A DNA stretch of 64,000 bases from Candidatus Obscuribacterales bacterium (lineage in GTDB: Bacteria; Cyanobacteriota; Vampirovibrionia; Obscuribacterales; Obscuribacteraceae), in NCBI GenBank assembly GCA_019745505.1, contig JAIETE010000011.1:1-64000 (forward strand). Reading direction: 5' to 3'. The notes below the pieces were generated by a model, which saw nothing but the letters and a program-made list of their open reading frames with translations, was not told where the DNA came from and ran no database searches. Made by a program: the position numbers and the translations under genes. Positions 3,515 to 13,878 of this stretch are shown piece by piece. How positions within the stretch are numbered: the first letter of the stretch is position 1; the number at the start of each line of letters is the position of its first letter.

Positions 3515-3538
3515 CAGTTGACTGTGCTTGTTGAGTAG

Positions 3539-3805
3539 CCAACTTCGTTCTATTGTTGCTATCAGCCATGGTGCAGAAAAGACGAAAATACCTTCGATTT
3601 CGGCAAAAATCAGGAGCGTAGCGAAAACGCGCATTCGTTCATTGCAATCAAGATCAATCAACATTTGGCAAAGGCGCTCCGTGAAATTCTTGCCGGACAT
3701 AAGATTAGGGAAAACGGGCGCCGCCAAAATGCGATAGTTGCATATGCGGTTCGGGCTCGGGATGCGGATCTTCATAATGATTTTTGCTGGGCACGCCTCA
3801 AATGA
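3539..3805 (+). pseudogene. Possible start-less coding remnant
   Basis: From the stop at 3536-3538 to the stop at 3803-3805 one frame reads as 88 hydrophilic, helix-like codons with no ATG/GTG/TTG in its first half. The composition looks protein-like, whereas the other frames here are broken or low complexity. I read it as the tail of a gene whose front has been lost. No family is recognised. It could also be chance. Confidence 0.25.
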
Positions 3806-3919
3806 ATCAGCAGTTGCGCTCCTTGAAACTTGGGCACCACGGCTTCCGAAAATGGGCACACCGCAAAGGTCAGCAATGACCGCACGTTCAAGCGTTGGGC
3901 GCCTGGCCCGCTTATCCTG

Positions 3920-3942
3920 CTATCTTGCTAATCACAAGATAG
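3920..3942 (+). other. Perfect 8-bp hairpin in the gap before the transposase
   Basis: CTATCTTG (3920-3927) pairs with CAAGATAG (3935-3942) over a 7-base loop. It sits in the roughly 350-base non-coding stretch 3806-4157 upstream of the IS110-type transposase. IS110-group elements carry their guide RNA on this side, so this could be part of it. It could also be ordinary non-coding structure. I see no gene in 3806-4157. Confidence 0.35.
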
Positions 3943-4175
3943 CCTTCGTGTTACCTTGTTCCAAGCTGATTAGGGACGCCGAGTCAGTGGGCGCGGGAGA
4001 GGCAGAGCTTATCCATAGGACTTGATCCTGCGAGGCAGATGTGTCCTCCCGCTGTCCTGGATCGAAGAGGTCGGACGATATCTAAGGCCCAGTTTTACTG
4101 AGAGCTTGAATTTAGCAGGTAGACCAAAAGATCTGGAATCCGTACTTACTCACTCAAATGGAAAGGTTGGACAGA

Positions 4176-5141
4176 ATGTCGGTGTCGTATGTTGGAGTTG
4201 ATGTTTCCAAGCTTACGCTGGATATTTTTGTTGAAGTAAACGGGCAAGGAAAGCATCAGACGTTTCTGAATTGTCCCGCAGGTTTCAAGGACATGAACAA
4301 ATGGTTTCAAAGGCAGAAGGTTAAGGATGTACATGTCTGCATGGAAGCGACCGGTTCTTACTGGGAGAAGTTTGCAGCATACTCCTTTGAGGAAGATTGG
4401 AAAGTTAGCGTTCTAAATCCTTCCTGCATCAAACGTTTTGCGCAAAGTGAATTGAAGCGAACCAAAACAGACAAGGTTGATGCCGGCGTCATCTGTCGTT
4501 TTGCAAAGGCTATGCAACCTGGACTTTGGACACCACCACCAAAAGAGGTGCAGGTACTGCAGGCTTTGTCCAGGCGGCTTCACAGCTTGATGAAAATGCG
4601 CAGACAGGAACTCAATCGCAAAGAAGCTGAATACGAAAAAGTAGTAAAGACTTCGATTGGAAACGTGGTCAAAATGCTTGATGCAGAAATTGCAAAAGTG
4701 CGAAAGAGAATTAAGCAAGTGTTGATGCGCCATGACCACTTGAAGAAGAAGCATGACTTGCTGATTAGTATTCCAGGAGTGGGAGAAGAAACCGCGCACT
4801 TGGTCTTAGCTGAAATACCAAACCTGGATTTTTTTGAAGAAGCCAAACAACTTGTTGCGTTCGCAGGATTGGCCCCCAGGGAAATTCGATCTGGAACATC
4901 TGTAAGAGGACGTTCAAGCCTGTCAAAAATGGGGAATGCCAGGCTACGGCAGGGGCTTTATATGTGTGCCCTTGTAGCCATGAAGTGGAATCCGATCATT
5001 TCGGCTTTTAGCGAACGACTCTTGCAGCGAGGCAAGCCTCCAATGAAGGTCCTTGGCGCAGCGATGAGAAAAATGCTGCACATCATTTACGGGGTCCTAA
5101 AATCCGGAAAACCCTTCCGTGCGGATCTTGCCAGCGCTTGA
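4176..5141 (+). CDS. IS110-family transposase (DEDD recombinase)
   Basis: The N-terminal DEDD RuvC-like domain shows GVDVSK, CMEATGSYWE and KTKTDKVDA. The C-terminal Transposase_20 domain has SIPGVGEETA followed by GLAPREIRSGTSV and GNARLRQ, with the conserved serine region. ATG 4176 is preferred over ATG 4158 because AAAGG lies upstream of it and family members begin just before the VGxDVSK strand. The product of 321 residues is full length and close to the size of IS1111-group enzymes. IS110 recombinases are programmed by a bridge RNA from a non-coding end of the element: upstream in the IS110 group, downstream in the IS1111 group. The gene appears functional. Confidence 0.93.
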   Translation: MSVSYVGVDVSKLTLDIFVEVNGQGKHQTFLNCPAGFKDMNKWFQRQKVKDVHVCMEATGSYWEKFAAYSFEEDWKVSVLNPSCIKRFAQSELKRTKTDKVDAGVICRFAKAMQPGLWTPPPKEVQVLQALSRRLHSLMKMRRQELNRKEAEYEKVVKTSIGNVVKMLDAEIAKVRKRIKQVLMRHDHLKKKHDLLISIPGVGEETAHLVLAEIPNLDFFEEAKQLVAFAGLAPREIRSGTSVRGRSSLSKMGNARLRQGLYMCALVAMKWNPIISAFSERLLQRGKPPMKVLGAAMRKMLHIIYGVLKSGKPFRADLASA

Positions 5142-5234
5142 CGGTCGAGACGATATCTGCCTCCGGACCTTTGGGCAATGGACTGTGAATGAGTTTGTTT
5201 TGCCCCGTTCATTTTGGGTGCAGAGGCGTAAAAA

Positions 5235-5390
5235 AGACCCCCGCGCACATCTGACCTTCTGCCCGAATACCGTCGAACTAGGGTCCTGGCGCGAAGGCTG
5301 CCGAAGGCACCCGTAGGGCTTGGTCTTCGCGGCGGGTTTTCGATGGTAGGCTGTTTTGCCGGGCAGATTGAAGCGGGGCTACCTTGTTTC
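5235..5390 (+). ncRNA. Structured non-coding element, copy 1 (next to IS110 transposase)
   Basis: Three nested perfect stems are visible: 5258-5265 with 5360-5367 (TCTGCCCG/CGGGCAGA), 5270-5277 with 5339-5346 (CCGTCGAA/TTCGATGG), and 5290-5296 with 5325-5331 (CGCGAAG/CTTCGCG). The whole stretch is homologous to 12559-12690, where most unpaired segments and the middle stem are kept. It has no coding frame. It begins 94 bases after the transposase stop, where IS1111-group elements carry their bridge RNA. The other reading is a conserved structured sequence used as an insertion target. The transcribed strand is inferred. Confidence 0.5.
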
Positions 5391-5492
5391 TTTGCGCAAC
5401 TTCAGTTTGGCGGATATTCGGTAAGATGTAGACATGCGGTCAATAGTACTAGGCGATAAGTGTGCGAGGCCATAGGGTGATGGGTAGCTAGA

Positions 5493-6332
5493 TTGGAAGT
5501 TTGGACGGTCGTCTTATTAACCTCTGTGGTTGCAGGTATCACAGGTATGTCCATTTTTGCGTTGCGCCCGACGCAGAGAAAGTCACCCGATCCGATGATT
5601 GTTAGCCTCTCGCGGGAGGAGGCGTTTACAAAGTTCTATGCCTATGTATCGAAGAAGCAATTGGACTTTCTTGTGTGGACGATTAGGGAAAGAGAAATGG
5701 GTAGGTTTGTAGTCGCAGACTTGCAGTATAGCGAAGAGTTTGAAAACAAATCGATTCGTTGCGATGCTGTAGTCAATTTTGATTTCTCGTCAGTGAGCCA
5801 AGACAAAACGAAACTTCGTTGGTCTTGCGAATATAAGCACTGGTGCGACGCAAAGACTGCCAGGCGGATGGAAGGACATATCACAAGCTGGCTTCAGGCC
5901 CTCTTCGAAAAGACTGTCAATCCTATTCGTGATGCGAAAGTTAAAGAGGGCGTCGGCCAATTGCAGGATTCTCCGCCAGAAGCGAGTCCACCACTGGAAT
6001 TGGAATGTCAGTTCCATTGTAGGCGACCCATAGACTTAACATTTGAGCGTATTCATGCAAGACTGTTGAATGCTGTCGAAACGAGCCAGAGTTGGAAGAT
6101 AGTTTTGATGAAAGCCGCGCCACCAAATTTGATGAACTGTGAGTTTCAAGTGATGGACGAAAGCAAGGGCTTAATGACCATAGCCATCCTAGCAATCGGA
6201 TTTGCTACAGAAAATGGAAAACAAACTGTAGTGACTTGGACTTACTTTCCTAACGATGTTCTGGCTTTTAACGATCATAAACAGGCAAAAGAAAGAGCCG
6301 ATGATTGGATTCGACTGGTCCTAACTGCGTGA
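5493..6332 (+). CDS. Membrane-anchored hypothetical protein with internal duplication
   Basis: The start is TTG 5493. Residues 1-25 form one membrane segment (VVLLTSVVAGITGMSIFAL), placing a soluble region of about 250 residues on one face of the membrane. That region looks like two copies of one fold. Residues 40-145 and 175-275 each run F..../K helix, then strands ending in a T.W.Y/C.Y segment, then a helix with A.R.....I..WL/I. I do not recognise the family. It stands alone between the insertion sequence and the convergent toxin-antitoxin genes. Confidence 0.6.
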   Translation: MEVWTVVLLTSVVAGITGMSIFALRPTQRKSPDPMIVSLSREEAFTKFYAYVSKKQLDFLVWTIREREMGRFVVADLQYSEEFENKSIRCDAVVNFDFSSVSQDKTKLRWSCEYKHWCDAKTARRMEGHITSWLQALFEKTVNPIRDAKVKEGVGQLQDSPPEASPPLELECQFHCRRPIDLTFERIHARLLNAVETSQSWKIVLMKAAPPNLMNCEFQVMDESKGLMTIAILAIGFATENGKQTVVTWTYFPNDVLAFNDHKQAKERADDWIRLVLTA

Positions 6333-6370
6333 GTCGAATTGACTTCGTCGACACAAAAAGGATGTGCGCA

Positions 6371-6844
6371 TTATTTTGGCGTCTTCCCAAACAGCCGCCG
6401 CTCGCAATCGGCAGCAAAAGCTATGCATGCACGAATGTCCTCGATGGTCAGATCTGGGAAGTCGGATAGGACGTCTTCATACGACATTCCCGCCGCGAGG
6501 CACTCAAGAACATCGGCGACGGTAATGCGCATGCCACGGATACAGGGCTTTCCGCTTCGTTTGCCAGGCTCAATCGTAATGATGTCTTTGTAGTTCATCT
6601 TTTGATTTCTTTGTTTCTTTGACGATTCGGCTGCGCTTTCTACACGATCCCGTTCGTTCAGTTCTTTTACCTCTTCAAATTCGCTCAGCTTTGGATATTC
6701 GTGAATCAATTTGCCGTCGCGCACGACGACAATTGCCGTGCCCGTTTGTGCAGCTAGCTTTCTGGCGCTCCTTGCGGCTCTGATTAGAGCCGCGGTTGCA
6801 CCTTGCATGTCTGGATCGTCAAGATTAGATTGCTCTTTGGTCAT
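6371..6844 (-). CDS. DUF433 antitoxin-like protein with N-terminal extension
   Basis: Residues 83-157 are a typical DUF433 domain: PGKRSGKPCIRGMRITV, then VLECLAAGMSYEDVLSDFPDLT and DIRACIAFAA. DUF433 proteins are small winged-helix antitoxins, usually of about 75 residues and paired with PIN-like DUF5615 toxins. Here 82 extra residues precede it. The first 50, around AALIRAARSARKLA and TAIVVVRDGKLIHEYP, look like a separate small alpha/beta module. The internal ATG at 6598 lacks a clear ribosome site, so I read a true fusion. It lies 17 bases after the PIN gene on the same strand and is probably the third gene of that operon. Confidence 0.8.
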   Translation of the reverse strand: MTKEQSNLDDPDMQGATAALIRAARSARKLAAQTGTAIVVVRDGKLIHEYPKLSEFEEVKELNERDRVESAAESSKKQRNQKMNYKDIITIEPGKRSGKPCIRGMRITVADVLECLAAGMSYEDVLSDFPDLTIEDIRACIAFAADCERRLFGKTPK

Positions 6845-6860
6845 TTCTTCTAAGCTCTAC

Positions 6861-7310
6861 TCAATTTATATCGTTCCAGAGTTGAGCCGCTGTAAAAAGC
6901 TCAAGATGTTTTACATTGCAAGTCGCAATCACCGTTTCTCGTCCTTCGGTCTGTGCAGTGATTGCTTGAGCCGCTAGTATTGCATCGGCATCAAGCTCGG
7001 TGTCGCCAGCTGTCGGTTTACCTTTTTTGCGCACGGCAGCCCAAAGTTCTGCTGCTTTTAGCATTGCCGTAGAATTGATAGGCAGAAATCCAAGTTCTTG
7101 CTTTAGCGAGTCCAGCCGGCGTAGACCAAGTGTTCTGTCACTACGGAATAGCTCCCGTCGAATCTCATAGTCCGCAATTTCAGGAACCACAATTTGGTGA
7201 CCCTGATGCAATGCGTGAGTTACCCATTCCAATATTTCTCTGTTTTTGTCAGCGCGTGGGTGGCTGATCATTCCCAGCGGTCCAGCGTCGAGCAGAATGA
7301 GCTTACTCAT
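6861..7310 (-). CDS. PIN-domain toxin (VapC-like ribonuclease)
   Basis: A 149-residue PIN fold. LLDAGPLG holds the first acidic residue (D8), VPEIADYE the conserved Glu (E44), and GDTELDADAILAAQA the next Asp cluster (D103-D109), followed by TCNVKHLELF. PIN toxins cleave tRNA or rRNA in a metal-dependent way and are held inactive by the upstream antitoxin. Its start overlaps the end of the 68-residue gene by eight bases, the usual antitoxin-toxin coupling. All expected acidic residues are present, so it should be active. Confidence 0.85.
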   Translation of the reverse strand: MSKLILLDAGPLGMISHPRADKNREILEWVTHALHQGHQIVVPEIADYEIRRELFRSDRTLGLRRLDSLKQELGFLPINSTAMLKAAELWAAVRKKGKPTAGDTELDADAILAAQAITAQTEGRETVIATCNVKHLELFTAAQLWNDIN

Positions 7311-7509
7311 TGAATAAGTTGTGTGACTTTGAATGATTTTCGTTCAAAGCCTGTTTGATTTGCGGCCACGCTTCCTCGTCATAACCGGAAGAATCCTGCA
7401 ACCATTCTTTAAACAGCTTTTGGACCTTTGCTACGCGCACACTATTAGTCTTGGTCTGTCCTGAGGACGAACCTTTCTTTGTAGGCTGTTTCTTGCTTGC
7501 GGCATCCAT
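7303..7509 (-). CDS. Putative antitoxin of the PIN toxin
   Basis: A 68-residue protein with a basic, Lys/Ser-rich first 25 residues and an acidic, amphipathic second half (KVQKLFKEWLQDSSGYDEE, then IKQALNE). That layout fits an antitoxin with a flexible DNA- or RNA-binding tail and a toxin-wrapping helix. The call rests mainly on position: it overlaps the PIN gene by eight bases and leads the operon. I do not recognise a named antitoxin family. Confidence 0.65.
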   Translation of the reverse strand: MDAASKKQPTKKGSSSGQTKTNSVRVAKVQKLFKEWLQDSSGYDEEAWPQIKQALNENHSKSHNLFNE

Positions 7510-7622
7510 CCTGGAAGCTACCTTACACTTGAGTTGATTACTATTTTACCAAAGAACGATTGATTACTGCCAAACTCCGCCTCTGTTTGCTGGATAGCCT
7601 GCCAGATGCGAATACTAAAGAG

Positions 7623-8708
7623 TCATTTTGAACTGCCGGGACTGACAATTGGCTGCTTCTTTGCTTGTTTGCGAGCCTCTTGGATCCGCTGTTTTATGCT
7701 CTTGGCTCTGCGCTGAGCGTATTTGTTTGGTGATGCAACAACAAAGTCGATAGTTTTCTCAGCTTCGTCGAATCTTTCGAGACCATTTAAGCATGATGCT
7801 TTGATGCACAAAGCATCCAAATAATCGTCGGAGTAATGAGGTACTTTGGCTGAGTCAAAGCAACTGAGCGCAATCGTGCATTCATTCAATCCTTTTGTTG
7901 CCCTTCCGAGCATTGCGAAGCAAATGGACTTTGTCATATGTGGTTTTGGTGTGGATGGAAACAGCTGCTCTGCTTCTTCTGCGAGCTTTATTGAAAGCAT
8001 GTACTTTCGTTGTTTGAAAGCCAGAGATGATTTCATCGACAGCCGATTGTAGTCGTCATATTCTTGTGGTCCGTCGAGTAGTTTTGGAAGAAACTGTTTT
8101 GCAAACTCGGCCGAGTCGTAGAGTTTGTTTTTCTCTTCGAAGAATTCCATTGCCCATGCTAGGAGTTCATTGAGATCGACTGGATATTGAGGAGGGTTAC
8201 CAACTTTCAATTTAGAGCTGTACTTAACCCATTCAGCTGAGTTCGATATCAAATTACCCCAATCGGCGGAGTGTGTAATTTCATGCAAAATCGTTCCAAA
8301 TCTTACAGTCTCTCTTTCCTCGTGAAAAAAGCGATCTGGGATAAACACAGCGCCCGCAAACGTCATTGCGCATGGGTTGTAGCCGGGTTCTTTTTGTGTA
8401 ATTCGGACAAGAGTCAGGCTGCCAGCTCTTTTGAGAAGGCGACCATATTTTACCTGTAGTCGCTTCATGTAGCCGTCGACTGTTTTTCTTTCTGAGGTTG
8501 TCCAAGTTTTGACAGTTTTCTTGTTTCTCCATGGATCAAAATGAAGCCCTTCTTCGACTGTCGCGAAAACCCAAGCTGGTTTCTTGGCTGTTTCCGCCTT
8601 TAAAGTCGTTACATCAATTTTCGCCAGCTCGCTGCTCAAGCTGGTTTGTGCGCTTGAGATTATTGTCGCGATGCATATTATCGGTAGTACTACGAATTTT
8701 TTCGACAT
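7623..8708 (-). CDS. Exported HExxH putative metallopeptidase with TPR-like C-terminus
   Basis: The product has 361 residues with a signal peptide at 1-26. Residues 140-170 contain LHEITHSADWG followed by SAEW, an HExxH zinc motif. A glutamate in NELLAWAMEFF about 35 residues on could be the third ligand. The last 150 residues are helical and TPR-like (ALSC, ALCIKASCLNGLERFDEAEK). The same motif arrangement occurs in the protein at 21990-23645 (HELIHMADLG...SIEW), so the two are paralogues, one inside the mobile region and one outside. The start overlaps the end of the integrase gene by 19 bases. Activity is inferred from the motif only. Confidence 0.7.
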   Translation of the reverse strand: MSKKFVVLPIICIATIISSAQTSLSSELAKIDVTTLKAETAKKPAWVFATVEEGLHFDPWRNKKTVKTWTTSERKTVDGYMKRLQVKYGRLLKRAGSLTLVRITQKEPGYNPCAMTFAGAVFIPDRFFHEERETVRFGTILHEITHSADWGNLISNSAEWVKYSSKLKVGNPPQYPVDLNELLAWAMEFFEEKNKLYDSAEFAKQFLPKLLDGPQEYDDYNRLSMKSSLAFKQRKYMLSIKLAEEAEQLFPSTPKPHMTKSICFAMLGRATKGLNECTIALSCFDSAKVPHYSDDYLDALCIKASCLNGLERFDEAEKTIDFVVASPNKYAQRRAKSIKQRIQEARKQAKKQPIVSPGSSK

Positions 8709-9931
8709 TGGAAAGTGTCCTTATCAATCTCGGCACTCTGCAAAATGGCGTCTGTAATTTGCTGCATGGCGGCGCGCAAACGTTCAGCGGTGATGACGAG
8801 ATAGCCGGAAGTAACATCGCCAGTGACCTTGTGGTTTAACAGTTTCTTGAGTGTGTAAGGCGAGATGTCTAGCCCTTCGGCGCAGGTTATGAATGACCGC
8901 CTGAGATCGTGGACTGTGAATGAAAGTTCGGACTTGTCTCTTACCTTCTTTACCGAATCGCGCACATCAACAAGATGTCCTTTCTTGCCTTCTCCGCGAA
9001 AGACATATTGTTCCTCCCCGGTGTCGTCGTGCCGTTGCAAGAACAGCGCATGAATGACATCGCTCATCGGCAGCATGTGATCGGTGCCATTTTTTGTGTC
9101 TTCAACTTTGAATGTTTTTGCATCCAGATCTACATTCTTCCACTCTAGCGTGGCTGCCTCATTGTGGCGCAAGCCGGTGAGCATAACCAGAATGAGGAAA
9201 TCCCTAGCTGTGGGATTTGGTAACTTCTGCACCGCCTCGAACCAGCCAGCAAGCTGATGTCGATGCACAGCGGTTTGTCTTCGGGGCACGCGATTCCACT
9301 GGCGCTTGAGACTTTTCACCGGATTGTCTTTAAGAAGTGGGCTGCCGTCCGGATTCTTGAATTCTTCAATGGCATATGAGTAGAGTGCTCGCAGTATGCG
9401 CATTGTGTAGTCCGCTTGGGCGGGGTGGTCCTCGCTCATCTTCTTATGGCGGTCTTTGACCATCCGCTCGGTAATTTCGGTCAGTGGTAACTTGAGCCAA
9501 TCATGGAGTGGTCTGCGCGTATGCCCGTTGTAGTCCTTGGCGGTCTTTTCGGTCAGGCGGCGGTCACTGAGGTAGATTTCGAGTACTCTCTCAAGCGTCA
9601 GGTCTTCTATTGTCTCTTTGTGTTTTCGAGCAACTGCGACCAGTTTTAGATGCTCTCGCTTCTCCTCGTTGGGATCTCTGCCTTCCGACAGGTCTCCAAG
9701 AATCTGCTTCGCTTTAACTCGTGCCTGCTCCGCGCTGATAATTCCATGCTTGCCAATTGTGACTGTGAGTTGTTTCCGGCTCTGACGGGGCTTGGTGATT
9801 ACCAGAAATGTCTTTGTAACCGTTCCATCTTTGGCTTTGTGAACGCGCAGCCAAAATCCTTTCAGCTCGGTGTCCTTGTAATAACCGGGCTCGTTGCTTT
9901 CAATTACGATGGATTTGGTCAGCTTTGGCAT
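8690..9931 (-). CDS. Tyrosine integrase (P4-type, DUF4102 arm-binding domain)
   Basis: A 413-residue site-specific recombinase. The N-terminal DUF4102-type arm-binding domain has FWLRVHKAKDGT and the KQLTVTIGKHGIISAEQAR block. A SAM-like core-binding domain follows, then the catalytic domain with all expected residues: Arg in TGLRHNE, Lys in DTKNG, HDLRR, LLNH and the Tyr of SGYLV. It integrates and excises the element. Its start faces the tRNA-Leu(CAA) fragment about 180 bases away, with arm-type repeats between them, the usual int-att layout. Transcription runs into the element. It appears intact. Confidence 0.95.
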   Translation of the reverse strand: MPKLTKSIVIESNEPGYYKDTELKGFWLRVHKAKDGTVTKTFLVITKPRQSRKQLTVTIGKHGIISAEQARVKAKQILGDLSEGRDPNEEKREHLKLVAVARKHKETIEDLTLERVLEIYLSDRRLTEKTAKDYNGHTRRPLHDWLKLPLTEITERMVKDRHKKMSEDHPAQADYTMRILRALYSYAIEEFKNPDGSPLLKDNPVKSLKRQWNRVPRRQTAVHRHQLAGWFEAVQKLPNPTARDFLILVMLTGLRHNEAATLEWKNVDLDAKTFKVEDTKNGTDHMLPMSDVIHALFLQRHDDTGEEQYVFRGEGKKGHLVDVRDSVKKVRDKSELSFTVHDLRRSFITCAEGLDISPYTLKKLLNHKVTGDVTSGYLVITAERLRAAMQQITDAILQSAEIDKDTFQCRKNS

Positions 9932-9980
9932 ATACTTTTTGTTCGGAATGGACTCGGATGATTAATGGTCATTTGGGCCG

Positions 9981-10001
9981 TGTGAAGCCAATGTGAAGCC
10001 A
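9981..10001. repeat. Arm-type direct repeats beside attR
   Basis: TGTGAAGCCA occurs twice, at 9981-9990 and 9992-10001, with an 11-base period. It lies between the integrase start and the tRNA-Leu fragment, where DUF4102 integrases bind short direct repeats through their N-terminal domain. Confidence 0.6.
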
Positions 10002-10111
10002 TCTGGATCACACCTTATCAAAAAGATTCCAAGGTGGTCAAGCTGGAAAGCCAGAACTGGCTGGGGTTTTTAAAAGTGGTCGAATTTAATCAATCCCCAA
10101 TTAAGCTGGCT

Positions 10112-10173
10112 CGGATGACTCAAAATCATCCGCCTTCACGGGCGTGTCGGTTCGACTCCGACCTTCGGCACCA
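10112..10173 (+). pseudogene. tRNA-Leu(CAA) 3' fragment, likely attR
   Basis: The right part of a class II tRNA is perfect: anticodon stem CGGATGA/TCATCCG around CTCAAAA (anticodon CAA), a variable arm, T arm GTCGG-TTCGACT-CCGAC at 10146-10162, acceptor strand CTTCGGC, discriminator A and an encoded CCA at 10171-10173. No D arm with GG in the loop precedes it. A possible upstream acceptor partner near 10079 mismatches and is preceded by nothing tRNA-like. This is what remains at the right end when an element integrates into the 3' half of a tRNA gene. The intact gene should lie left of the window. Confidence 0.75.
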
Positions 10174-10312
10174 ATTATTTTTTCAGACTCTACCAGAAGA
10201 TTTTTGGCGTATGCATAGCGCTCCTTTGTAGCCAATGCGAGGCGAAATAATCTCGTTATTGATCTGCATTAACCATTTGAAGCCAGGTTGTTTCCTTTAG
10301 GTTAGAGTGCGC

Positions 10313-10402
10313 ATGTATGTGGTCAAACTAAAAATCCGCATCTTCGCATGGGCAGCAATTAGTCTACTAGTATTGAATACGGTGCGCTTAATTTGTTGCT
10401 GA
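10313..10402 (+). pseudogene. Orphan signal-peptide-like reading frame
   Basis: A 29-codon frame from ATG encodes a basic start (MYVVKLKIRIF) and a hydrophobic core (AWAAISLLVLNTV), then stops. It looks like a detached export signal. The next gene on this strand resembles a LolA-fold protein, a family normally exported, yet its own start carries no signal. A frameshift or small deletion between 10400 and 10505 would explain both. Confidence 0.35.
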
Positions 10403-10504
10403 CTGCCGAAGTGCATATGGGGTGTCATGTACGACTTTCTTGTTGCAGATCCGGGTGATCCTGAATTCATCCGTGGCTGAGGCAAAAGCTGAAGAGTAAA
10501 GACC

Positions 10505-11239
10505 TTGAACTCAGAATCCATAGTCGCGAAACTTATAGAGCGATATCAGGGTTTGAAAACCTATCAGAACTCGGGCTTTGTACAAGTTACTTGCGACCAG
10601 TCCGTGTCGAAGTCCCGCTTTCGTACTTACTTCCAGCGACCGAGTAATTATCGCTTTGATTGGTGGAGTGAATTTGAGCATAACTCGTATCCATTAAGCG
10701 AGCCATTGCATGGTCAGCTATGGTCAAATCCTAAAGGGGCATTTATTCGCTATGGAAATGATGCCTATAAGAAGCGGACCAATCTGAAAGCAGCTTTGTC
10801 TTCAGGATTTCCGCATAGTGAAGCAGCTATTCTGCCGATGAGTTTGCTGCTTCCAGAGGTCGTTCAGTTTGACAGTTGCATTTCACTAATGAAAGATGGT
10901 GTCCTAAAGCCAAAGCCAAGCTTTATGCCTTTTCACCAGGTCTTCTTTCAGAAATCTGTGAACGAGACTTTGGATTTGTATATTCACGAAGACGATTTCT
11001 CCTTGAGGCGAGTGCGCAGAGTAACAAGTTATCAGTTTACTCAAGAGTCTCTCGATTCTATCGAGAATGCCCCTGATTCCGATGCAGTCGTAGTTCCTAA
11101 AGCTACACTTCTTGCTGATATGAAGCTTCTCTTGAACCAGGTCCATCGGAGCACCGAGGATTTTGTGTTTGAAGAACAGTTTTTTGATCAGAGAATCTTT
11201 GGTAACCCATTTAGCAGTTTGCCTATTGAGCGCAAGTAG
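10505..11239 (+). CDS. LolA/RseB-fold-like protein, probably missing its signal peptide
   Basis: A 244-residue protein from TTG 10505. The first 45 residues, ERYQGLKTYQNSGFVQV then FRTYFQRPSNYRFDW, match the opening strand pattern of LolA/LppX/RseB-like or DUF2092 proteins, which bind lipid tails or lipoproteins in the periplasm. The rest is beta-rich with a VFFQKSVNETLDLYI segment. No signal peptide is encoded at this start; the frame at 10313-10402 could be its lost one. It lies just outside the attR site. The fold call is tentative. Confidence 0.55.
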   Translation: MNSESIVAKLIERYQGLKTYQNSGFVQVTCDQSVSKSRFRTYFQRPSNYRFDWWSEFEHNSYPLSEPLHGQLWSNPKGAFIRYGNDAYKKRTNLKAALSSGFPHSEAAILPMSLLLPEVVQFDSCISLMKDGVLKPKPSFMPFHQVFFQKSVNETLDLYIHEDDFSLRRVRRVTSYQFTQESLDSIENAPDSDAVVVPKATLLADMKLLLNQVHRSTEDFVFEEQFFDQRIFGNPFSSLPIERK

Positions 11240-11360
11240 CGAAACCATATTGCATGCATGCTTGTTTTCTGTAGCGAGCTGCATTTTCGATTTGCCCTCT
11301 GTAAAACTCCAGGGGTATGAGCTTGTCGAGATATCCTTGCATATCATCCACGTTTCATGC

Positions 11361-12515
11361 TCAGCTTAATTTGCGTCTCCATTGCATTCCAGAACAAGCG
11401 TAAAAGGACGGAACAAAGATGCGGTACAAGAGAAAACAGCCGAACAGAACTGAAGCGATCTGAGCAGTCGTTGGGCAGAATTTCTTATGAATCGTTTGTA
11501 GATAAGCAATTTCTGCACGTTTCTTATATAGAGCTTCGGAAGCTCTTTGATGTCCCAATAAGCTTTCAGTTAGAGCGAGGCGATCGATAGTACTGAAATG
11601 AACGAGATACTCGTCGCTGTTTCCAATCGCTAGAAGTGTCTTAGAAATACTTTCTTGGCTAGCATCTCGTTGTTCCAGTTTTGCTTGACAGTACGCGATG
11701 TTGCTAAGAGCCTCCGCTTGCTCTGCGAAGTCTCTATGGATTTTGAAAAGACCGACTGCCCTTTCAAAATACTGAATTGATAAACCAAACTCTTCCTTCG
11801 ATTCAGTAAACTGCTTTTTCCAAGACTTTTGCAATGCACTTGCCCGAAAGTTTTCTCCGATGAGAATAAATCGATGTGCCATTTGAGTACTTTCTGGACC
11901 GTAAACGCTGGATATGACGTCGTTTAGTTTTAGCATCGTCTTGTCTTCAGCATTGAGTTTGGGCTGGTAATCCCAAATGGCTGCAAGAGACATGTCATCT
12001 TTCTGATGCAGTGGATCCGGAATCAATTGAAATATGCGCTCTCCTATCACATATTGCTGAAGAGCATTTGCTGCATAGGCGAGTGTGATGCCACCGAACC
12101 AAAGGATGGTAAAGCACGCAACCACCGTTGCAATGCAGCAAATTGTTCCGCTTAATAGAGCGGCTGGCCCAAACACCAGCTGGACCTTTGGAAAGGAAAG
12201 GCAGATGCATTGCCTAAGTGCTTCGCGCAGTTGTTGATTCCACTTTTGTCGCCGGAGAGCTTTTCGTTGGAAGAACTGAATCGCCAGCATGATGCCTAGC
12301 ATCGTCGCTGGAAAGATTGCTGGTACTAGGTATTTCGCTTGCCCGTACTGCCACGCGATAGCAACTTCGCCGGCACAAACGCAGGCCAGAGCAAACATCC
12401 AAACGCTTATACAGTGCTCTGTCGGTAGGAAGTCAATTTTCATGGCAGTTACTTGGCTAAAGGCAATAAGCATCAAAATATGCCATATATGGATATTTGT
12501 CACTCGTATAAGCAC
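11361..12515 (-). CDS. Multi-pass membrane protein with cytosolic TPR-like region
   Basis: The product has 384 residues. Membrane segments are visible at about 8-25, 35-55, 62-82 and 118-150, with another near 345-365. Between them residues 215-335 are helical and TPR-like (YFERAVGLFKIHRDFAEQAEALSNIAYCQAKL, a classic helix pair, shown in part). The architecture matches the protein at 13956-15068. No enzyme motif is seen. Upstream of its start lies the structured element at 12559-12690. Confidence 0.65.
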   Translation of the reverse strand: MLIRVTNIHIWHILMLIAFSQVTAMKIDFLPTEHCISVWMFALACVCAGEVAIAWQYGQAKYLVPAIFPATMLGIMLAIQFFQRKALRRQKWNQQLREALRQCICLSFPKVQLVFGPAALLSGTICCIATVVACFTILWFGGITLAYAANALQQYVIGERIFQLIPDPLHQKDDMSLAAIWDYQPKLNAEDKTMLKLNDVISSVYGPESTQMAHRFILIGENFRASALQKSWKKQFTESKEEFGLSIQYFERAVGLFKIHRDFAEQAEALSNIAYCQAKLEQRDASQESISKTLLAIGNSDEYLVHFSTIDRLALTESLLGHQRASEALYKKRAEIAYLQTIHKKFCPTTAQIASVLFGCFLLYRIFVPSFYACSGMQWRRKLS

Positions 12516-12558
12516 TAATGAAGTAAGGGAAACTGCTAGTTGGCGTCAGCGGCATAGA

Positions 12559-12690
12559 TGAGACCCTCGCGCATCTTACTTGCTGACCGAATACCGTCGA
12601 ACTGGGGATCTGGCGCAAAGGCACCCGGAGAGTATGGGCTTCGCTGCGGGCGTTCGATGGTTGACTGTTTGCCGGGCGGATTAATGGGGA
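12559..12690 (+). ncRNA. Structured non-coding element, copy 2 (no transposase)
   Basis: Homologous to 5235-5390 over its whole length: both contain CCGAATACCGTCGAACT, TGGCGC(A/G)AAGGC, TTCGATGG and TTTGCCGGGC. The middle stem is a perfect 9 bp (12594-12602 with 12652-12660, one G-T pair). Relative to copy 1 there is a 10-base internal deletion that shortens the inner arm. No open frame spans it. It fills the gap between the pyrC stop and the start of the membrane/TPR gene. The transcribed strand is unknown; the homologous strand is given. It may be an insertion-sequence remnant or an independent RNA. Confidence 0.5.
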
Positions 12691-12718
12691 CCACCGCTGC
12701 TTTTAGCGGCTGGCTGAG

Positions 12719-13774
12719 CTATTGGTTGTGCAGCGCAGCTTCGATTTTTGGTTCTGGTGATATTTCGGTCGCCACTCTCCATCGCAAATTCGTACCCGAC
12801 AGAAAGGGTTTAACACCGCCATATTCCTGCGGCACAGACCAGTTTTCCTTCAACAGGGTGACGAAGTTTTGATTGACCGGCAGACCGTAGAATTGCGCGC
12901 CAAAGAGAGAAGTAAATGCCTCGAGATTATCTAGTTTGTCTTCCTTTTCAAAGAGCTCGAACAAAGCAGGCAACAAGACCGGTGCGGAGTAAACTCCAGC
13001 AGCACCGCAGGCGCATTCTTTGTCAGCGATCGCATGGGGCGCGCTGTCTGAGCCAAGAAAGAACTTCGGGTTGCTTTTCAGCACGACTTCGCGCAAGGCC
13101 TCGCGATCTTCCGGTCGTTTTGCGACCGGTTTGCAGAAGGCATGTGGATTCAATTTGTCGCCGATTATGTCGTCGAGCGTCAAGTACAGGTGATGCACTG
13201 TCACCGTTGCAGCTACGTTTTCTGGAAGATCCATTACGCATTTTACGGCATCGGCAGTGGTGGCATGTTCGAGCACTATTTTCAGTTTTGGAAAATTCTG
13301 CGCAATCTGTTTGAGCACAATGAGAAACTTTGTTTCTCGATCGAGTGAAAATTCGCCAGGCATTTCACCATGCAAGCACAGCACGAGACCCTCATTTTGC
13401 ATTGCTTCATAAAGGGGATAGAGAGATTGAAAATCGGTAACTCCCCCCTCGGAATTAGTGGTCACTCCGTCAGGATACAGCTTGCCAGCGAGGACGCCGG
13501 CTTGCTTGAGTCCTGCGATCTGCTCCGGTTTTGCCGCCGGCGTAATCTTGAATGTCATTAGCGGCTGAAAAGTGCTGTGCTGTGGAAGCGCTTCGATGAT
13601 TGATTTCTTGTATTCGATTACATCGGTGTTCGAGAGGATGGCGGGTGTCGTATTTGGCATCACCAGAGCGCGATCGCACTGCGAAATCGTATGAGGCAGC
13701 ACTTTGCGCAGCATCTCGCCTTGTCGAACGTGCAAATGCATATCATCGATTTTACGGATCCGCGTTTGTTCCAT
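12719..13774 (-). CDS. pyrC: Dihydroorotase, PyrC type
   Basis: Catalyses reversible cyclisation of carbamoyl-aspartate to dihydroorotate in pyrimidine synthesis. Metal ligands are visible in order: DMHLHVR near the start, the carbamylated-lysine motif AGKLYPDG, LCLHGE, VLEHATT, and the catalytic Asp in FLGSDSAPH. The length of about 351 residues fits the E. coli-type enzyme (348) rather than the longer PyrC/allantoinase branch. I chose ATG 13774 because GAGGAG (13783-13788) lies eight bases upstream. GTG 13783 overlaps that site. It has no pyrimidine neighbours. A pair of 15-base repeats lies about 105 bases upstream. Confidence 0.93.
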   Translation of the reverse strand: MEQTRIRKIDDMHLHVRQGEMLRKVLPHTISQCDRALVMPNTTPAILSNTDVIEYKKSIIEALPQHSTFQPLMTFKITPAAKPEQIAGLKQAGVLAGKLYPDGVTTNSEGGVTDFQSLYPLYEAMQNEGLVLCLHGEMPGEFSLDRETKFLIVLKQIAQNFPKLKIVLEHATTADAVKCVMDLPENVAATVTVHHLYLTLDDIIGDKLNPHAFCKPVAKRPEDREALREVVLKSNPKFFLGSDSAPHAIADKECACGAAGVYSAPVLLPALFELFEKEDKLDNLEAFTSLFGAQFYGLPVNQNFVTLLKENWSVPQEYGGVKPFLSGTNLRWRVATEISPEPKIEAALHNQ

Positions 13775-13878
13775 TTGCACCACTCCTCGTCAATAACTGA
13801 TTGTGTTCAACTCTCTTCCGTAACGCACCTGTCTCCAATTTTCTCGCTAAGAATAACACACGTCCTTGATAAGACTGG

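Follow-up and report, generated by a model that had tools for sequence, protein, structure and literature searches.

The window analyzed here is a 64,000-nucleotide stretch of contig JAIETE010000011.1 (assembly GCA_019745505.1) from Candidatus Obscuribacterales bacterium. It carries two copies of a repeated element that we read, with a probability of roughly 0.75, as a folded single-stranded DNA (ssDNA) promoter or priming site of conjugative and mobilizable elements. Comparison of many copies establishes the fold of the element, the strand on which it forms, its place behind the nick site (nic) of the origin of transfer (oriT) and the layout of its neighbor genes. The two copies in the window and the parts of copy 1 are as follows.

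5237-5383, + strand (folding and most likely transferred strand): copy 1, folded element; 154 bits with covariance model R1, supported by covariation
5299-5318, + strand: Y-shaped tip of copy 1, with hairpins TGCCGAAGGCA (5299-5309) and CCCGTAGGG (5310-5318); covarying helices 5 and 6
5326-5331, + strand: -35-like position of copy 1, TTCGCG; most family copies have TTGA(C/T)N
5347-5352, + strand: -10-like hexamer TAGGCT of copy 1, 15 nt downstream of the -35-like position, at the three-way junction
12561-12695, + strand: copy 2, apparently decayed; 81 bits with model R1; one tip hairpin missing; TTGACT at the -10 position

Fold, family and folding strand

A sequence-only reading of the window had described two homologous stretches of about 130 bases as copies of an unnamed structured non-coding element. 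Blastn confirms the homology, with 76% identity across ~130 bp (E 5e-20), and both the long identical blocks and the inner arm that is 10 nt shorter in copy 2 are real. The claim that the two copies fold alike does not hold. Copy 1 has a stronger fold than its shuffles (RNA z-score -2.8; DNA z-score -2.99 on the + strand and -0.6 on the - strand), while the minimum-energy structure of copy 2 differs from the consensus fold (z +1.7), which holds only with several broken pairs. Copy 2 therefore looks like a decayed solo copy, and its promoter-like boxes are weak as well.

Two copies also proved to be an undercount, as a covariance-model search finds 9 in this genome. The same kind of search in 117 related genomes gives ~130 matches, which come from 36 genomes and almost all from one family. 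In the wider phylum, model R2 finds only 2 of 292 genomes, the source genome and G178, which restricts the full-length form almost entirely to one family. The covariance model and the search of relatives had been proposed as the check on the element, and they return both the many copies and the compensatory changes that count in favor of a structured element. In the consensus of 39 pairs built from twenty copies, double changes are seen at 20. When 89 copies are aligned with the model, double changes occur in 37 of the 39 pairs and 93.7% of the cells are paired; the covariation score is 0.549 compared with 0.153 in shuffles, in an alignment that is itself fitted to the model and for which both slid and shuffled controls score much lower. 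The element forms a long interrupted stem that ends in a Y-shaped tip made up of two small hairpins; its base carries a side hairpin.

The paired positions hold 254 G-U and 31 A-C combinations (198 and 27 in copies outside the training set). Because G-U far outnumbers A-C, the + strand, which is the strand first read, is the folding strand, and DNA energy parameters point to the same strand. A leader RNA of the opposite-strand genes was rejected, since these counts place the fold on the other strand. The element carries a direct repeat (ATCTGCC..TTCTGCC or CATGC..CATGCC) at its 5' end, which covaries with a shared 3' partner (GGCAGAT or GGCATG), as if two alternative pairings or a strand exchange were kept.

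A structured RNA made from the + strand, acting in trans or as an antisense regulator of the operons around it, would explain the strong covariation and the G-U tolerance of that strand equally well. We consider such an RNA improbable. The position of the element is fixed relative to nic, and no Rfam family matches it at the gathering score; copy 1 has no match at a relaxed threshold either. The absence of a match agrees with the first impression that riboswitch, T-box, HEARO and group II patterns do not fit. A literature search for the core sequence turned up no relevant paper.

Some copies are solo copies with unrelated flanks. For example, locus L006 shares 92.7% identity with L013/L082 over the element alone. 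Since such copies share the element and not the flanks, modular shuffling of the element is likely. A miniature inverted-repeat transposable element (MITE-like) or mobile RNA was nevertheless rejected as the leading explanation, because the main context is conjugation genes.

Position behind nic and neighbor genes

The conserved block beside copy 1 ends at a nick site.

3557-3919, + strand: oriT-like block beside copy 1, with the nic motif TATCCTG (3913-3919) at its end; 85-89% identical to loci L086/L087

Its end, TATCCTG|C, is the MOBP nick consensus (PMC3772185), and in L086/L087 the nick site is 95-96 nt away from the element, on its 5' side. Across all loci there are 35 occurrences of (C/T)ATC(C/T)TG|CCT, compared with ~5 expected by chance in 645 kb as estimated from base counts. 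Of the 35 motifs, 27 share the folding strand and precede the element on its 5' side (p about 1e-10 when tested against one quarter). The distance from the nick to the element behind it is 71 to ~3,900 nt in 26 loci and 6.8 kb in a single outlier. As in MOBP oriTs, (C/T)ATCCTG(C/T) is found near relaxase genes, and half of the loci have the variant ATCTTG. Given that nic precedes the element on the folding strand, this strand is most likely the one that conjugation transfers, and the element would enter the recipient early. The stable stem-loop would then be formed by the transferred strand, as in the Frpo-like class discussed below. That the element is oriT itself was rejected as the main explanation, given that several copies occur per conjugative element and nic lies apart. 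Beside MobC-like genes a block of ~28-39 nt (CTTTCATCTTGCCTTACGGCTC..) is nearly invariant (L117 flank, -713 to -675; equivalents in L109, L133, L135 and L136) and is probably the nic region of that oriT class.

Open reading frames (ORFs) were clustered around 97 copies and named with Pfam, except for MobC-like and TraG-like genes, which were named from their sequence. Recurrent neighbors are relaxase (PF03432), MobC-like, SSB, RadC, GP88, TraG-like and integrase genes. Seen from the folding strand, relaxase genes are on the opposite strand and left of the element in 24 of 25 cases and MobC-like genes in 23 of 25; SSB (19/20) and GP88 (13/13) are on the opposite strand and to the right, and RadC is opposite to the fold in 29 of 30, counts that are partly non-independent as some loci carry several copies. 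The order is fixed as GP88, SSB, element, RadC, oriT, MobC, relaxase. It matches the order in the F plasmid, where leading genes, oriT and relaxosome genes follow one another. The element thus sits in a leading-region position, with genes on the complementary strand directed towards oriT. Two to five copies share one orientation in several loci (L101, L126, L131 and L097, the last with one inverted copy). An opposite-strand gene starts within 250 nt to the left of 31 copies, compared with 14.3 expected at random positions, and RadC and integrase gene starts directly adjoin some copies. Loci L077, L078 and L120-L124 have a tyrosine integrase gene on one side of the element and genes for RHS/YD-repeat proteins on the other, and form an island type of their own.

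Promoter-like boxes and proposed mechanism

The 3' arm contains TTGA(C/T)N followed by TAGGCT, which resemble -35 and -10 boxes. The spacer between them is exactly 15 nt in 68 of the 97 copies and 14-16 nt in 96, and TAGGCT occupies the -10 position in 58. The stem between the boxes varies freely while the spacing is held. The role as promoter or primer is argued from these boxes and from analogy with Frpo and with single-strand origins (sso).

We propose that the transferred strand (T-strand) enters the recipient and the element folds into a stem with the Y-shaped tip. The 3' arm would serve as the non-template strand of a promoter, with its TTGAC-like box, the 15-nt spacer and TAGGCT at the junction, and the 5' arm would serve as the template. 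RNA polymerase would then transcribe towards the 5' end of the T-strand, into the opposite-strand genes, so that leading genes are expressed, the complementary strand is primed, or both. The element would probably let the recipient begin RNA synthesis before the DNA becomes double-stranded. Once the DNA is double-stranded the fold would be lost and the promoter switched off.

The boxes also bear on another possible function, a recombination site that is active in single-stranded form for adjacent tyrosine integrases, like attC or the attachment hairpin of CTX phage. Such attC-like and CTX hairpins are of similar size, and the integrase gene begins at or near the left edge in ~10 copies. Most copies have no adjoining integrase, several copies can occur in one element, and the conserved blocks resemble promoter boxes rather than core sites. 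We regard this function as very unlikely.

The core outside the family

The Y-shaped tip is the part of the element that is conserved beyond the family. A pattern of the tip alone matches 20 genome contigs, including metagenome-assembled genomes labeled Treponema, Planctomycetota, Alphaproteobacteria, Acidobacteria and Desulfobia; these labels can be wrong, and Simkania and Chloroflexi contigs with near full-length copies may be misbinned. Eight viral contigs also match, and a blast search with the tip finds matches in small plasmids. The plasmid search with the full element, the search of a deposited phage collection with two cores and a direct plasmid search with the Treponema core each gave no match. 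Of the 14 independent outside groups that the tip alone retrieved, 7 have TAnnnT at a spacer of 14-16 nt, while 29 other offsets give 2 in total. This count is an independent test of the -10 assignment because the search pattern excluded that region. Canonical boxes are seen outside the family in TTTACA-15-TATAAT (L177) and TTGTAT-16-TATACT (L166).

In the Rep_1 plasmids pZMO1A and pYQ39, and more weakly in pRE8424, the core is on the rep strand, the strand displaced in rolling-circle replication. The model match in pRE8424 is at 5267-5421; the plasmid was reportedly published with a predicted single-strand origin, which may coincide with this match. In the inovirus-like L187 the core is intergenic and on the virion strand, which codes for Zot, secretin and a G2P-like Rep. 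A Phaeobacter MOBP/MPF_T plasmid has its SSB gene placed as in the family described here. In pBBR1, a common cloning replicon (L193), the core is found at 1237-1360, in an unannotated region upstream of rep.

These cases return to the structured-RNA explanation. The folding strand is antisense to its operon neighbors in conjugative elements and sense in rolling-circle plasmids and the inovirus. The one constant across them, as judged from strand assignments, is that the fold forms on whichever strand becomes single-stranded. This speaks against the initial suggestion of an RNA gene.

Relation to known systems

Frpo and ssi are the ssDNA promoters of the F and ColIb-P9 leading regions (PMC9849209, PMC11541004). 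The element resembles them in its folded transferred strand, the putative -10 and -35 boxes in a stem, the leading-region location near an SSB gene, the leading genes on the complementary strand towards oriT, and more than one copy per plasmid. It differs in size (~147 nt, compared with a several-hundred-nt repeat for Frpo), in the Y-shaped tip directly above the -35 box, the 15-nt spacer and a -10 that is mostly TAGGCT, and in being GC-rich with no AT-rich UP element evident and in a different phylum.

The single-strand origins of rolling-circle plasmids and integrative and conjugative elements (ICEs), for example sso1 of pBAA1/ICEBs1, are folded ssDNA structures that work in one orientation and that host RNA polymerase uses as a promoter (PMC4595007). 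The resemblance to them rests on the logic of the folded strand and on the core in Rep_1 plasmids, not on the sequence or stem layout of the named Gram-positive sso classes. For filamentous phages, the intergenic core on the virion strand of L187 is the point of likeness. These phages have a complementary-strand origin.

The element could fold on the transferred or displaced strand but act only as a second-strand origin (sso or ssi), used by RNA polymerase or primase, with no gene expression. The core on the rep strand of rolling-circle plasmids and between genes of the inovirus agrees with this, as do the many conjugative copies that have no gene start nearby. The promoter-like boxes at fixed spacing, the several copies per leading region (L097, L101, L131) and the RadC and integrase starts directly beside the element point the other way. 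A pure second-strand origin is possible but less likely than not. Because F Frpo is reported to do both jobs, promoter and second-strand origin (PMC4595007, PMC9849209), the two functions are not exclusive.

Several observations weigh against a promoter or priming site of the Frpo kind. TTGGCT rather than TAGGCT is at the -10 position in 16 of 97 copies, and part of the genus of the window has a degenerate -35-like box, as in TTCGCG of copy 1. A 15-nt spacer is short for sigma-70, though ~5 nt more are present in the template arm. Only about one third of the copies have an opposite-strand gene start within 250 nt, and one copy in L097 is inverted. Outside the family, pBBR1 and MobV plasmids lack a strict -10 at a spacer of 14-16 nt, and one small Shigella plasmid has the core reversed relative to rep and MobV. 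A search of the F leading region (48000-67500) with model R2 gave no match up to E 10, and by this model the element lacks homology to F Frpo.

The genes that a plasmid expresses first on reaching a new host, such as SSB and anti-defense genes, are determined by its ssDNA promoters, of which the well-studied examples are enterobacterial. The new element provides a searchable, covariance-supported family in an uncultured lineage on the cyanobacterial side, and it marks the transferred strand and the location of leading regions. It suggests an architecture that the family shares with rolling-circle plasmids and inoviruses. The family opens the spread and evolution of ssDNA promoters to direct tests. 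The wider proposal is that the Y-shaped tip, -35, 15-nt spacer and -10 together form one ancient class of ssDNA promoter or origin, common to conjugative elements, to rolling-circle plasmids and to filamentous phages in several phyla, and always on the strand that becomes single-stranded. We consider the odds for this proposal evenly balanced. If true, it would be a common start signal of ssDNA mobile elements, recognizable by sequence.

IS110 and the surroundings of the two copies

Other features of the window around the two copies are as follows.

3917-5156 (about), + strand: IS110-family insertion with CT at both ends; transposase 4158-5141 (Pfam DEDD_Tnp_IS110 and Transposase_20)
8690-9931, - strand: tyrosine integrase of the copy 1 island (Pfam Phage_integrase and Arm-DNA-bind_3)
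10105-10173, + strand: tRNA-Leu-like gene, 3' part only; 97% identity over 69 bp with the end of the tRNA in L016
11361-12515, - strand: ORF near copy 2, starting 46 nt from its left end, on the opposite strand

The IS110 splits nic between TATCCT and GCC, and sites without it are found in L086, L087 and L096. Judged from this layout, the transfer system in the window is out of order, as IS110 interrupts oriT at nic.

A bridge RNA, or another part of IS110, had been suggested for the element. Like a bridge RNA it is structured and near a transposase, which ends ~95 nt from copy 1, and the IS110 of contig C244 holds a copy inside. Unlike a bridge RNA, the element is independent of IS110 in nearly all copies: IS110 is near only 4 of 97, and the orientations relative to the two transposases are opposite. 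Since L086/L087 have the same oriT flank and copy 1 without IS110, the element is not an IS110 bridge RNA, and we give any other part in IS110 next to no credence.

The insertion at TATCCT|G suggests that this IS110 may target oriT. A second IS110, in L008 (G000:C244, 3411-4985), interrupts a copy of the element at GGTA|GGCT. Within its own length this IS110 holds a further copy (3528-3681), which has the other orientation with respect to the transposase. The suggestion that the element is a structured target was partly right, in that one IS110 hit the adjacent nic site and the other a copy itself.

Copy 1 is probably in an integrated island. A near-identical integrase is found in L081, beside two copies of the element. 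The tRNA-Leu-like fragment, for which no complete tRNA gene is called at 10105-10173, is a probable attachment site at the island edge. Beside copy 2, a dihydroorotase-like gene (12719-13783) has DNA matches only in three other genera among 25 relatives and in none of 7 sister genomes; as it matches other genera and no sister genome, the region of copy 2 may be foreign too.
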